Positions 2,394 to 25,739 of a DNA stretch of 64,000 nt are shown here, in pieces. The stretch is from NCBI GenBank assembly GCA_019359045.1, contig JAHHIA010000001.1, forward strand, positions 372,001 to 436,000. The letters run 5' to 3'. The first letter of the stretch is position 1. Each line of letters begins with the position of its first letter. The notes beneath the pieces were generated by a model, which was not told where the DNA came from, ran no database searches, and saw nothing but the letters and a program-made list of their open reading frames with translations. A program made the translations under genes and the position numbers. The DNA comes from Scytolyngbya sp. HA4215-MV1. GTDB taxonomy: Bacteria > Cyanobacteriota > Cyanobacteriia > Leptolyngbyales > Leptolyngbyaceae.

Positions 2394-4031
2394 TTAAGGG
2401 ATACTGAGAATTTTTCGTAATATCGTTTGGTCAGCCGGTTTAACTTGAAACCGACCATTTTCAACATCACGAATCCAACTTTGACTCTTCCCTATCTTTT
2501 CGGCAAGGACTCTCTGACTTATCCCCAGATGCTTTCTGGCCGCAACAATTTGTTCAGAAGATAGCGTAATCGATGATACTGTTTTTGCTGATTTATGGGT
2601 TGCCCCTCGTTTTGAACCGTAGCGGGATTTCGATTTTCCCTTTTCGTTACCGATCGGTTTCTGATTCCAGTCGGAAGGGAGCTTGAACTGTAGAATTCGG
2701 GCGTTCATGAGTCGGTTCCATTTCCCCCGAGGCGCTGCATCCGTTAGCCGGATGTGGTTGCTACCATCATTCATCCAGAACTCTAAGGCATCATCAGCAT
2801 CGTCTGGCAGGTCAGTCAGTTTTGCCCATAAAGGTTGAATTTCTAAAGGGTAAGTGACTGGATCAAACACAGCGCTTAGCCCATAGTGATTTAGCACTTC
2901 GAGATCATTTTCAAAGGCTCGCAGGAGACGCTTGCGTTCTTTACGGTTTGCATCACAACGATTGATTTTCTCGTCTCCATAGGCTACGCGCATTAAAGTG
3001 GGTACAGTAATTCGCTGCTCCGCACCCACTTTGCTTTTAAAGAGTAACCAAAGCATCATGCGGGCAGCACCTTCATGTTGTTGCCAGATGCTCATTACGG
3101 CATTGATCAACGATTTTGGTAATGTGCCGTATTGATAAAAAGCAGAATAGTCTCTACAGCCCTGCTTGTTCAAAAAATATTTTGCCCAGATCCCGGCTTT
3201 GATTCTGAAGGTAAGGCCCACGAGATGTCTGCAGCCAGCATCATCTTCCTGTAAATGATGTTGAATGTCGAGGAGTTGCCATAAGGGACTTTTGGCAATA
3301 GAAAATCTTTTAATTTTGCCCTGTTGCGCCCACTCCACTTCTAGATTAAAAGCACAGGCTTGTTGTACCCATTCGCGAATCAGAATTAGTTTGGCAGCTT
3401 TGTTGAGGTCTCTGCGTTTTTCTAAGGCAAGATACTGTTCGATTTGACGATCGTTAATGATGAATTCTTGTTCCCAAGGGCGTTCCAAAGCAACGACATG
3501 CGCAGCATAAATCAAATGGAGGCAGGCTGCCCGAATATCCATAGTCTCCATCATATCTAGCTCAGACATCGGTGCACCAACGCTGGTTGAGCTAGACGGA
3601 CGCGCGTCGGCTGTCCCGTTCAGCCAAAACTTAATCGAACCGCGCCCCTGCTTAACTAGCCGTTCGTAGTAGAGCTGTCCGTTGGTATCTGTTTTCCAGG
3701 CTAAAGATTGGCGCTGTGCCAGAATATTGCAGCCTTCCCAAATGACGATCGCGGAAGCAAAAGGATTCGTTTTGCCATCCAAAAACAGATCAGGGCTGGT
3801 TGCAATTCTGTCATCTTCTTTCCATCGACCTTTTTTAGACTGTAGGGGGACGGGGGGCGTCTCAATGGGGCAATGAACGACACATTGAGGTGCATCATAA
3901 AATCCCTCACAGTTGTTACACAGTTCTGGGTCAATCCAATAATCCTGACCTTCGCGTTTGACAGCACCCGTTGGACATTCGGGCATACAACTACTGCATT
4001 GAATACATCGATTGGTAATCGTGTAAGGCAT
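2394..4031 (-). CDS. cnfR: CnfR/PatB-type nif transcription activator (ferredoxin domain plus helix-turn-helix)
   Basis: A 545-residue protein from the ATG at 4031, where the ferredoxin domain begins. An in-frame start at 4118 would add 29 residues that look non-coding. The N terminus has two [4Fe-4S]-type cysteine clusters (CIQCSSCMPECPTGAV at about 9-24, then CNNCEGFYDAPQCVVHCP). The middle is a long region of unknown fold, and the last 60 residues are a lambda-repressor-like helix-turn-helix (AARKHLGISQRVLAEKIGKS). This layout defines CnfR, also called PatB. In Leptolyngbya boryana CnfR switches on nif transcription under low oxygen and nitrogen starvation, and the Fe-S domain is thought to sense oxygen. 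It lies on the same strand as the main nif block but about 2.6 kb beyond its end. Its likely targets here are the nifB and nifP promoters. Confidence 0.93.
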   Translation of the reverse strand: MPYTITNRCIQCSSCMPECPTGAVKREGQDYWIDPELCNNCEGFYDAPQCVVHCPIETPPVPLQSKKGRWKEDDRIATSPDLFLDGKTNPFASAIVIWEGCNILAQRQSLAWKTDTNGQLYYERLVKQGRGSIKFWLNGTADARPSSSTSVGAPMSELDMMETMDIRAACLHLIYAAHVVALERPWEQEFIINDRQIEQYLALEKRRDLNKAAKLILIREWVQQACAFNLEVEWAQQGKIKRFSIAKSPLWQLLDIQHHLQEDDAGCRHLVGLTFRIKAGIWAKYFLNKQGCRDYSAFYQYGTLPKSLINAVMSIWQQHEGAARMMLWLLFKSKVGAEQRITVPTLMRVAYGDEKINRCDANRKERKRLLRAFENDLEVLNHYGLSAVFDPVTYPLEIQPLWAKLTDLPDDADDALEFWMNDGSNHIRLTDAAPRGKWNRLMNARILQFKLPSDWNQKPIGNEKGKSKSRYGSKRGATHKSAKTVSSITLSSEQIVAARKHLGISQRVLAEKIGKSQSWIRDVENGRFQVKPADQTILRKILSIP

Positions 4032-5178: not shown

Positions 5179-5529
5179 ATGATTACGGAAGAAGAACTGA
5201 CGAAGGAGTTTATCGCGATCGTTGATCGCTATTATCCAAAAACTGGAGAACTCTTGCGCCATTGCTATGTCAAAATCATCACGATGCATTGGGGTAAACC
5301 ACCTCGAAGGGTTCGGTACATCGGAATTTATTGTCCCGAAACGTTGGTATCATCCATCAAGGCGGATCTGGATGTGCTGTGGGATATTGCAGAGAATATG
5401 GGGTTGGTACAGGTGATTTGTCGAGATGCAAATCGATTATTGCGCGATCCATTATCGAAACTCAAACAGTCTGATCCGCGCTTCTGGCTTGAGTTGCACT
5501 GGCTGATGCGTGATGACGCAATGAGGTAG
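5179..5529 (+). CDS. hypothetical protein, 116 residues
   Basis: An ATG-started frame with even codon use. The product has no membrane segment or signal peptide. It contains a strand-rich middle (YVKIITMHWGKPPRRVRYIG) followed by a helical part (LDVLWDIAENMGLVQVICRD). I do not recognise the family. There is no clear Shine-Dalgarno sequence before the ATG. It is isolated on the plus strand between cnfR and a methyltransferase gene, so it may be an accessory gene carried with the nif island or a chance frame. Confidence 0.45.
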   Translation: MITEEELTKEFIAIVDRYYPKTGELLRHCYVKIITMHWGKPPRRVRYIGIYCPETLVSSIKADLDVLWDIAENMGLVQVICRDANRLLRDPLSKLKQSDPRFWLELHWLMRDDAMR

Positions 5530-22560: not shown

Positions 22561-24036
22561 TCAGCTCTTTTGCACGTATTGGTCGTAGAACTCTCTTGCC
22601 ACTTTTTCGATCACATCGTAGGCTTCAACGACGACTAAGCCAGCTTCTCGCAGTTCGGCTTTGGGACACTCTCCCACTTTTGAAACCAGAATTGCTTTAC
22701 AGTCTGCGATCGCTTTAATCGTGTGTTCCAATGTGGCATCTTCACCGTAGCCACTCTGGCAATAGTGATCAATCTTCCGATGTCCCACAAATTTTGCCTC
22801 GTTGGCATCGACTTCGTAAATCATGAACTCCTTAGCGTGACCAAAGTGTTGATTGACAATGCCACCCCCTTTCGTTGCCACTGCCACCAGGATTTTGGGA
22901 CTGTCTTTGGTTCGCTCACTGGGCTTAACTTTCGTTTTGGCAAGCTTAATCTCTTCTTTGAATTTCTCAATTCCGGCATGAACTTCTTGACGGAGTTCCA
23001 GATCATACTGGGGAGCCATTTCCATGAACTTATCTTTCGTAAATTCTTGGCTCCGGTCTTCACCTAGCAATCCCACAGCATCAGCACGACACTGGCGACA
23101 GTGGCGCATCATTTTCATGTTGCTGTCAGCGCACTGATCCTGTAGCGCCTTTAATTCTTTGGGTGTTGGACCCCGTTGCCCATTTAAGCCAAAGTAGGTG
23201 CCATGTTCTGGCGCAGAAATCAGTGGCATGATGTTGTGCAGAAAAGCACCTTTCTCTCGAATGACCTGATCGACTTCAGCCAGGTGCTGATCATTAATTC
23301 CAGGAATCATGACCGAGTTGACCTTGCATAGAATGTCAGCTTCTTTGAGTGCCTGCAATCCCTCCATTTGCCGTTCATGCAGGATTCGCGCTGCTTCTAG
23401 CCCCTTGTACCGTTTGCGTCGGTAGTGCACCCAGGGATAAATTTGAGTGCCGATTTCCGGGTCCACCATATTAATCGTGATGGTAACGTGATCGACATTG
23501 AGTTGTTTGATGCGATCGACGTAATCTGGCAGCATCAATCCGTTGGTGGACAGGCACAACTTAATATCGGGCGCTTTGTCAGCAATCAGTTCAAAAGTGC
23601 GAAATGTTTTTTCTGGATTGGCAAGCGGATCACCTGGTCCCGCAATTCCCAGCACCGTCATTTGAGGAATTTTCCCCGCAATGACCAGAACCTTGTGGGC
23701 GGCTTCTTCAGGCGTCAACAGCTCACTCACAACACCGGGGCGGCTCTCGTTGGCGCAATCGTATTTACGGTTACAGTAATTGCATTGGATGTTGCAAGCA
23801 GGTGCTACCGCAACGTGCATCCGGGCATAGTGATGGTGAGCTTCTTCGCTATAGCAGGGATGCTTTTCAATCCGTTGTCTCATGCGCTCATCGAATGCGG
23901 GCGCAGGTTTGGTGCTGGTACAACCACAACTACTAGCGCTATCTTTCCGTGTGACTGTGTTTTTCGTAATAAGAATGTCCGTAACCGATTCTGTGGTTGG
24001 GGACGTTAAAAGTCCTGAAGAAGGGGGGGGTGTCAT
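22561..24036 (-). CDS. nifB: NifB, radical SAM FeMo-cofactor core synthase
   Basis: 491 residues. Radical SAM cluster motif [14 protein letters not shown] at about residue 81, with [12 protein letters not shown] and [11 protein letters not shown] further on. The C terminus is a NifX-like cofactor-binding domain ([20 protein letters not shown]). It makes NifB-co, the 8Fe-9S-C precursor of FeMo-cofactor. It is the first gene of the long minus-strand operon and faces the shared control region with nifP. The coding frame is intact. Confidence 0.97.
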
Positions 24037-24268
24037 GGACTCTCTGGGGTTCGGTGGACTCAGCTGTTTTTGCGAAATCCAGAGTAATGCGAAAGGAGAA
24101 AAGGGTCATTGATGCAAAAGAAGCCAGGGATGTTTATCCATTACCCGATACTCGTTTCCCATCACTCTGAACCATGGGTGTTTCGGTGTGATGTGAAAGT
24201 TATATCAGTCGTCAAAAACCAAGCTTGGCCACTGGCTCGGCTTTGGATTTATTGAATCAATTAATGAT

Positions 24269-24462
24269 GTACTCAACCTCTAAAACCCTGTTTTGAAGCG
24301 CAACCAAAATTTCTTTTGGGTCAGGGTACAGGTATTGATTGATGGGGGGACAAGTATTTATGAGGGAGAGGCGCTTGTATTTCTGTACTCAGCTCAAACC
24401 TAGAAATCACAGGAATTTGAAGAACTTTTGGTTGATTTTTAAAACCAAGAATAAGGTACTCA
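24269..24462 (-). promoter_or_regulatory. three-site TGAGTAC array facing nifB, candidate CnfR operators
   Basis: Sites at 24269-24275, 24385-24391 and 24456-24462 all read TGAGTAC on the nifB coding strand. Start-to-start spacings are 116 and 71 bases. The site nearest nifB lies 232 bases from its ATG and has the extended form GGGTTTTAGAGGTTGAGTAC. In four of six sites in the region the base before the heptamer group follows a purine-rich AG(A/G)G run. The link to CnfR is inference. Confidence 0.65.
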
Positions 24463-24675
24463 AAGCTTCAGTAAAATTCGGAAGTTCGATAACCTTCTAT
24501 TCAATATTGCCAAGAATTCTTCAAAAACGCAAGATTCGGTATCTAAATTAACAGATTCAAGTTTGTACCTTATAATACGACAAGACCTTGAAAAAGATGC
24601 AGGTTCTTTAGAAAATCTTTGTGCTTGATTCCACATAGAAGTTCAAAGTGATATTTTCAGTTCTGAAACCCCTTT

Positions 24676-24872
24676 TGAGTACAATCTTGCTGTCAAGAAA
24701 GTAGCTTCAAAAATGCTGTTGAAAGCTGAATGTCAAAGGGCTCGAGTTTGAGTACAGCAATGCTTGTCCCTATCCCTTAGAAATGCTCATGCCTCCCTGG
24801 TAAAATACTCATCCCCTCTCCCCCAAAAAAACTTTTAATCCCTAGTATGAAAGGTTTAAGAGGGCTGAGTAC
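24676..24872 (+). promoter_or_regulatory. three-site TGAGTAC array facing nifP, candidate CnfR operators
   Basis: Sites at 24676-24682, 24749-24755 and 24866-24872 read TGAGTAC on the nifP coding strand. Spacings are 73 and 117 bases, the same order as on the nifB side when counted outward. The site nearest nifP has the form GGTTTAAGAGGGCTGAGTAC and is 114 bases from the chosen ATG. Confidence 0.65.
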
Positions 24873-24986
24873 ATTCCTAATTGGTTTAATAAATCCGAAT
24901 TGCGGTGGGGTGAAGCAGTACTGCGAAAAGCACCTGATATAAGCAGGAACAACGGAATTTGTTGTCCTCCTCATCCCCAGCGTGCA

Positions 24987-25739
24987 ATGTTACAGCTTTT
25001 CCCTCCCGATAGGTTTTTCGATCGCTGTCCAGTCTGGTTGCCAAGTGATCATCGCTTCCCACAGGCAATCTATCAAGTCATCCGCACCCTACAGGCTGAT
25101 TTTGGCATCATTTTTGAGCGTGACCCCGCCGCCCGCCACTGGCTGGAGGTGTTGTGTTGTTATCCAGGATTCCACGCCCTCATGATGCACCGGATCGCCC
25201 ATTGGCTTCATCGCTGGGCGATTCCCTTTCTGCCACGTTTGATCTCTCATCTGTCGCGTTTTTTGACTGGGATTGAAATTCATCCTGGTGCTGTGATTGG
25301 GCAAGGCGTTTTTATTGATCACGGCATGGGCGTTGTGATTGGTGAAACCGCGATCGTCGGCGACTACACGCTCATCTATCAGGGGGTCACCCTGGGCGGC
25401 ACAGGCAAGGAAACTGGCAAGCGTCATCCTACGGTGGGGATGCATGTCGTGATTGGCGCGGGCGCAAAAATCCTTGGCAATATTCAGATTGGCGATCGCG
25501 CTCGGATTGGCGCAGGCTCGATCGTGCTGCGTGATGTTCCTTGCAACTGCACAGCGGTCGGGGTTCCCGGTCGCAATATTTGTCAGGAGCCGCCATCTGA
25601 TTGCCCGCTCGATCATGCAAAACTGCCGGATGCGGAGGTAACCGTCATTCGTACTATGCTGAACCGCATCGAGCGATTAGAACATGTTTTACAAACCCTT
25701 CAATCTGCTCGGAGCTACGACGATGTTCCAATCCCCTAA
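24987..25739 (+). CDS. nifP: NifP, serine O-acetyltransferase
   Basis: 250 residues from the ATG at 24987. An in-frame TTG at 24900 would add 29 residues not typical of the family. CysE-type: helical N-terminal domain ([20 protein letters not shown]), then left-handed beta-helix hexapeptides ([55 protein letters not shown]). It makes O-acetylserine, the precursor of cysteine. In nif clusters this isozyme boosts sulfur supply for NifS. First gene of the plus-strand nif operon. Confidence 0.93.

Follow-up and report, generated by a model that had tools for sequence, protein, structure and literature searches.

The spacer between nifB and nifP in the window (by which we mean the whole 64,000-nucleotide stretch of Scytolyngbya sp. 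HA4215-MV1 DNA analyzed here) holds two mirrored arrays of the heptamer TGAGTAC, which are back-to-back nif control regions, very probably acting through the low-oxygen activator CnfR. The relatives examined here preserve the layout of the arrays nearly base for base, and it is specific to nif loci. We consider it likely that the spacer comprises two divergent CnfR-dependent promoters of the sigma-70 type, built to one rigid design; CnfR as the binding protein, and the response to oxygen, we infer from the literature. The finding is largely an understood one: a conserved CnfR nif promoter, of a kind already known in part from Anabaena (CS1–CS3) and Leptolyngbya boryana, is present here twice.

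The flanking genes and the six heptamers are arranged as follows:

22561–24036, minus strand: nifB (TIGR01290, E 2.8e-203), heading nifB-S-U-H-D-K..E-N
24269–24275, minus strand: TGAGTAC, proximal site of the nifB arm, 5' base at about -83 from the predicted start
24385–24391, minus strand: TGAGTAC, middle site of the nifB arm, exact match
24456–24462, minus strand: TGAGTAC, distal site of the nifB arm, exact match
24676–24682, plus strand: TGAGTAC, distal site of the nifP arm, exact match
24749–24755, plus strand: TGAGTAC, middle site of the nifP arm, exact match
24866–24872, plus strand: TGAGTAC, proximal site of the nifP arm, about -84 from the predicted start
24987–25739, plus strand: nifP, serine acetyltransferase family (CysE TIGR01172, E 5e-74; hexapeptide and SATase_N domains)

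A preliminary description of this DNA had reported the cluster, and all six exact copies were located in the spacer in the orientations given there (three aimed at nifB and three at nifP) and with the same spacings, namely 116 and then 71 bases on the nifB side and 117 and then 73 on the nifP side, each counted outward from its gene. Its spacer length of 950 bases matches a nifP start at ATG 24987. As listed, the open reading frame of nifP, the first gene on the divergent side of the spacer, begins at TTG 24900, but the ATG is probably the start, because the predicted -10 element lies at 24935–24942. Similarly, its estimate of about 0.1 chance copies is close to the 0.081 expected in 951 bp at the genome's own rate; six or more copies in 951 bp have P = 3.6e-10 (uncorrected for the choice of heptamer and spacer). 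The heptamer is ordinary in this genome, with 561 copies in 6.62 Mb (below the 655 of the reversed control) and 12 in the whole window, six of them outside the spacer (shuffle mean 3.5, largest 8); its clustering in the spacer is not. The proximal sites of both arms lie in a 37-nt inverted repeat (24242–24278 and 24863–24899; 81%). A longer shared form proposed for these two sites, GGTTT-n-AGAG-nn-TGAGTAC, fits the nifB-proximal site as written, but the nifP-proximal site needs three n. The TGAGTACTCA palindrome is absent from the spacer. TGAGTACAA is said to be the cis-element of L. boryana; a text search for it returned no paper on cyanobacteria by title.

Both arms lead into a core promoter of the same composite architecture, consisting of GGGTTT..AG, the proximal heptamer, a TAAT/CAATAA block, and an extended -10 element, and recognized by a sequence profile (R1, see below):

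24192–24293, minus strand: nifB core promoter (R1 63.6 bits, E 7e-17, whole genome)
24200–24207, minus strand: extended -10 of nifB, TGATATAA; start predicted at about 24192, 5' UTR about 156 nt
24850–24948, plus strand: nifP core promoter, same composite as that of nifB (R1 52.3 bits, E 2.4e-13, whole genome)
24935–24942, plus strand: extended -10 of nifP, TGATATAA; start predicted at about 24950, ATG 24987

The window's two extended -10 elements arose in 0 of 100 shuffles, and the best match to a TTGACA -35 element is 1–2 of 6 in both arms. The middle and proximal sites are separated by three 13-base repeats of the AAATACTnGTnCC type, 22 bp apart, which we refer to as iterons. The extended -10, the three iterons of each arm, and a central NtcA-type box had all been overlooked when the module was described:

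24370–24382, minus strand: iteron 1 of the nifB arm (AAATACTnGTnCC type)
24347–24359, minus strand: iteron 2 of the nifB arm
24325–24337, minus strand: iteron 3 of the nifB arm
24565–24578, no strand assigned: NtcA-type palindrome GTAN8TAC, at the spacer centre midway between the two arrays
24758–24770, plus strand: iteron 1 of the nifP arm
24781–24793, plus strand: iteron 2 of the nifP arm
24803–24815, plus strand: iteron 3 of the nifP arm

A search of 388 genomes of the class for the triple pattern (distal–middle spacing 65–81, middle–proximal 107–135) identified arrays at 116 places in 78 genomes, compared with 1 place for the reversed pattern. The fetched loci contained 118 arrays, of which 114 were kept after removal of two duplicates (locus L216 was left out as a duplicate of L126, from the same genome) and of two arrays in genome G091 (locus L209), which we dropped as chance because of their odd spacings (77/134 and 78/112) and because G091 has no match to the heptamer-plus-extended-10 pattern. 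The retained arrays face nifB in 63 cases, nifP in 45, and other genes in 6. The upstream regions of relatives, which had been put forward as a check, show the same arrangement, with three heptamers toward nifB and three directed away on the nifP side.

The internal structure of the arrays recurs as well. The extended -10 (TGNTATAA) is present in 114/114 arrays, its TATAA beginning 68–72 nt past the proximal heptamer, which places the predicted start about 82 nt downstream of that heptamer; the best TTGACA match is 1–3 of 6 in 106 arrays and 4 of 6 in the other 8 (spacer 16–18). Iterons start about 2, 24, and 46 nt past the middle heptamer, with a spacing of 22 in 177 of 211 neighbouring pairs, and number three in 99 arrays, two in 13, and one in 2 (at least 7 of 11 letters), compared with three in 3 of 114 shuffled segments, counts that are favoured because the consensus was derived from the same 114 arrays. 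An exact iteron-pair pattern, which misses the window because the blocks there are inexact, occurs at 27 places in 18 of the 388 genomes (control 0). By position, 26 of these are no more than about 1 kb from a triple array, at a third operon described below (G243 C23, locus L266), or beside nifB–nifP (G089, locus L267); the 27th (G283 C627) falls outside the positional comparison. In 12 chosen loci named Nostoc, Anabaena, and kin, with the start codon taken as the one closest to the aligned region, the predicted nifB 5' UTRs measure 258–337 nt in 11 and 441 nt in the twelfth (L058), the former agreeing with the value of -328 for nifB1 of A. variabilis in a figure legend of PMC4284476 (in the part of that paper covered).

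The same promoter is characteristic of cyanobacterial nifB more generally. From a larger number of nifB loci in named genomes we used the best 80, taking 66 as cyanobacterial and 14 as controls; together with 13 loci from the window's family and the window itself, this gave 80 cyanobacterial loci. Among the 74 of these having at least 900 bp upstream (some genomes counted twice), the heptamer plus extended -10 is exact in 65 and present with one mismatch in 6 more, and it was found in 0 of the 14 non-cyanobacterial loci. The promoter is absent from nifB loci L055, L070, and L074, the last of which probably has a mis-set gene start. Profile R1, built from 56 proximal promoters of other genomes with the window excluded, matches the organism's own 6.6 Mb genome at three sites with E < 1e-3, namely those at nifB and nifP and a partial one at a TIGR01616 nitrogenase-associated gene. 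This third match (G000:C23:219125-219167, plus strand, locus L264; partial, E 4e-6) lies about 106 nt upstream of the ArsC-like TIGR01616 gene, which is followed by a cupin gene. In the family, under stricter filters, R1 matches 15 of 42 genomes, comprising 14 with a strong NifB match and G026, where cnfR and an array at nifP are present without a strong NifB match; the other 27 gave no match. Eleven of the 15 had supplied sequences to the profile (G000, G021, G026, and G029 had not).

The spacings within an arm are narrowly distributed. Across the 114 arrays the distal–middle spacing is 70–75, and the middle–proximal spacing falls into two classes, 113–118 in 82 arrays and 124–129 in 32, with none at 119–123. 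When same-strand heptamer pairs up to 260 bp apart are tabulated with no spacing window (near relatives included, some genomes twice), those toward nifB fall at 70–74 (47), 80 (2), 115–118 (15), and 124–129 (36), again with none at 119–123, and those away from nifB at 72–74 (14), 114–117 (14), and 127 (2), plus five short ones at 10–14; the remaining pairs are longer, mostly near sums of the two spacings. Sixteen arms have exact distal and proximal sites and no exact middle one, and 12 of them show a match of 5–6 of 7 letters at 71–74, which the other 4 lack. It is the stretch from iteron 3 to the proximal site that is extended in the long class (median 73 vs 62). On the nifP side of loci L130, L131, and L132, an extra heptamer lies 10 bp from the distal site and the middle site is lost; the extra copy is possibly a one-turn shifted duplicate.

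The spacings had been read as close to whole turns of DNA, a reading that survives only in part. In the window itself, 71 bp corresponds to 6.8 turns at 10.5 bp, leaving the nifB distal site slightly off. Among relatives the two spacing clusters do lie about one turn apart, but the independent changes are few and the periods come out near 11–12. By parsimony, the NifB tree (62 rows) requires 3 changes of spacing class, 2 of them forced by branches with good support, and the NifP tree (45 rows) requires 4, with 1 forced, so that one-turn changes probably arose more than once; the empty gap at 119–123 has P = 0.27 under a uniform spread of seven independent values. We rejected a whole-turn periodicity of the total span, for which the best Rayleigh period is 11.8 over all 116 arrays (12.3 over distinct family–span pairs) rather than 10.5. 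The case for phasing therefore depends on the two-cluster spacing, which loses force once kinship is counted, and the helical phasing of sites within an arm is suggestive only.

Six arrays face genes other than nifB and nifP. Four front a three-protein operon; another lies before a weak match to an integrase, and the last before an unnamed ORF with an MFS transporter behind it. At the integrase locus (L191, genome G380), the ORF behind the triple array is weakly phage-integrase-like and may belong to an element that inserted downstream of a nif promoter. The third operon encodes proteins of about 140–170 (small, membrane-like), 80–90, and 103 aa, and carries the full exact triple array at L172, L174, L196, and L197; a nif-type promoter precedes it at these loci and at L257–L261 and L266, in family f32, which we take for heterocyst-formers. 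At E 0.01, its proteins gave no Pfam match (the three of L172 and one of L196) and no NCBIfam match (the three of L172), and the window contains no homologues of them or of CoxB at E 1e-3. Judged by eye, an ORF upstream of cnfR in the window (5179–5529, plus strand) is similar to the fourth ORF in the L261 copy of the third operon.

The shorter heptamer-plus-extended-10 pattern is found in 131 of the 388 genomes, and in the organism's own genome once per strand, at nifB and nifP, with one control match. Its reversed control occurs at 45 places in 41 genomes (counted by eye), so some of the matches are chance. Ten other genomes, picked for this nearness, have the pattern near cnfR (L247–L256), with no exact heptamer within 400 bp upstream. 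It precedes coxB at L252, a ParB-like gene at L250 (by Pfam) and at L251 and L255 (by eye), and at the other loci a small operon encoding a cupin-like protein, which at L247 is a weak match below threshold and at the remaining ones was assigned by eye.

The presumed binding protein is encoded in the window itself:

2394–4031, minus strand: cnfR, with an N-terminal 4Fe-4S ferredoxin domain and a C-terminal HTH

Alignments of many homologues begin at residue 1 of the 545-aa form. A CnfR match at E <= 1e-40, a cut that also lets in weaker, partial relatives, is present in 75 of the 78 array genomes (weakly in G050, G091, and G338) vs 85 of 310 others (counted by eye), G014, G044, and G382 being the array genomes without one; 85 of the 160 genomes with a CnfR-like match have no exact triple array. 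Because CnfR and nif co-occur anyway, this co-occurrence does not single out CnfR as the binder. No copy of the promoter appears in the stretch examined upstream of the window's own cnfR, the genome's only exact promoters being the two described. According to the parts of PMC8510180 covered, the N-terminal Fe-S region of CnfR and its C-terminal HTH region are both required in L. boryana, nifB is preceded by three conserved elements 'thought to be' CnfR sites, and nifB1 expression is cut by about 50% on losing either of two sites and about 75% on losing both. The main text of the ChIP paper PMC3898017, as far as covered, does not contain the terms nifB, nif genes, or nifP. The earlier idea of two copies of one regulatory module is supported; the module is nif-specific, co-occurs with CnfR, and matches the published nifB elements (PMC8510180, in the parts covered).

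Several other explanations for the arrays deserve weighing. Under the looping or cooperative coupling suggested at the outset, both arrays could form a single unit, in which a two-sided CnfR assembly loops the spacer and co-activates both promoters. Such a unit would fit the presence of both arms in many genomes, their mirror symmetry, and the distance of 220 bp (start to start) between the distal sites here. At the 23 loci with both triple arrays, however, the arms are 200–1,595 bp apart, with spacers inside an arm far more constrained than this distance, and show no 10.5-bp rhythm (p 0.17), although distal–distal distances carry a weak rhythm of 11.1 bp (p 0.012, periods 9.5–11.5) and the 13 distances under 300 one of 11.5 bp (p 0.007), both with kinship ignored. 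Single arrays also front other operons. Given the variable separation and the weak 11-bp rhythm, we find little support for coupling and think a single unit unlikely. A reading of the array as an old repeat that was duplicated and has no regulatory function draws on the 37-nt inverted repeat common to both arms, but the geometry is fixed across families, and site loss lowers expression in Anabaena (PMC8510180, in the part covered); we regard it as extremely improbable.

Control by NifA and sigma-54, as in proteobacteria, would involve a -24/-12 GG-GC promoter element; 24037–24986 contains none, and the extended -10 is present in every one of the 114 arrays. A single TGTN10ACA at 24620, about chance level, speaks for such control, which we would all but discount. 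NtcA binds boxes of consensus GTAN8TAC, and NtcA-activated promoters carry the box about 22 bp upstream of the -10. The copy at the spacer centre is like the consensus, but it lies outside the arrays and about 360 bp from both -10 elements, not in that layout. Between divergent promoter pairs GTAN8TAC is found at 23 of 52 distinct loci (a count inflated by near relatives) vs 0–3 for nine other spacer lengths, and in this genome the box may add nitrogen status. These boxes, the equally conserved second repeat set formed by the iterons, and the guarded wording 'thought to be' (PMC8510180, as far as covered) would all accommodate another regulator binding the heptamers, with CnfR acting indirectly or via the iterons. 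Against it, TGAGTAC is not an NtcA box by the consensus above, and heptamer-type promoters adjoin cnfR in ten genomes, a weak argument since these were picked for that; we judge such a regulator improbable, to about the same degree as the single looped unit.

The closest known systems are nif promoters of A. variabilis and L. boryana. In the parts of PMC8510180 and PMC4284476 covered, the nifB1 and nifB2 genes of A. variabilis (CS1–CS3) have, like the window, three elements upstream of nifB in the same orientation with a TGAGTATA-type motif, and their CnfR-dependent promoters have an extended -10 without a -35, as here; 'another conserved motif' in Figure 11 of PMC4284476 may be the iteron. 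The A. variabilis nif2 system, as far as covered, has one apparent CnfR site for nifB2 and the divergent nifZT2, whereas the window has a full array per side. In L. boryana, CnfR activates both divergent operons of the nifB–nifP spacer (PMC5943405), and the window is alike in position and orientation, with an array before nifB and another before the divergent nifP; there too, three elements lie upstream of nifB (according to PMC8510180), although the nifE and nifN genes, which the window has on its nifB side, lie on the nifP side of the L. boryana spacer (PMC5943405), all as given in the parts covered. The geometry here places the proximal element near -80 instead of at a distance of 300 bp. 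The fixed geometry, one-turn steps, 22-bp iterons, and third operon were not found in the published accounts covered, which stop short of the main cis-element papers, and we make no claim of priority.

The simplest mechanism would be one nucleoprotein complex per arm that contacts RNA polymerase, each arm presumably acting separately. At low oxygen, CnfR (4Fe-4S plus HTH) would bind the heptamer elements; the proximal one, at about -80, would place the activator to touch RNA polymerase and so offset the lack of a -35. DNA folding by the upstream elements, which face roughly the same side of the helix, and by the iterons might let several CnfR molecules cooperate. More tentatively, and with somewhat more doubt than confidence, we suggest that the nif promoter is enhanceosome-like, with three oriented CnfR elements, three 22-bp iterons that serve either a second DNA-binding partner or an additional contact with CnfR, a fixed extended -10, a housekeeping-type polymerase, and spacers evolving by whole turns, a third copy (probably in heterocyst-formers) driving new nitrogen-fixation parts.

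How CnfR switches on the nitrogenase genes is unsettled, and the question bears on moving nif into non-fixing phototrophs. A fixed map of three heptamers, three iterons, a -10 element, and two spacer lengths specifies the bases to mutate and the spacers to shift, and profile R1 has picked nif-linked genes out of whole genomes. The iterons, for their part, point to a possible second binding activity at these promoters.
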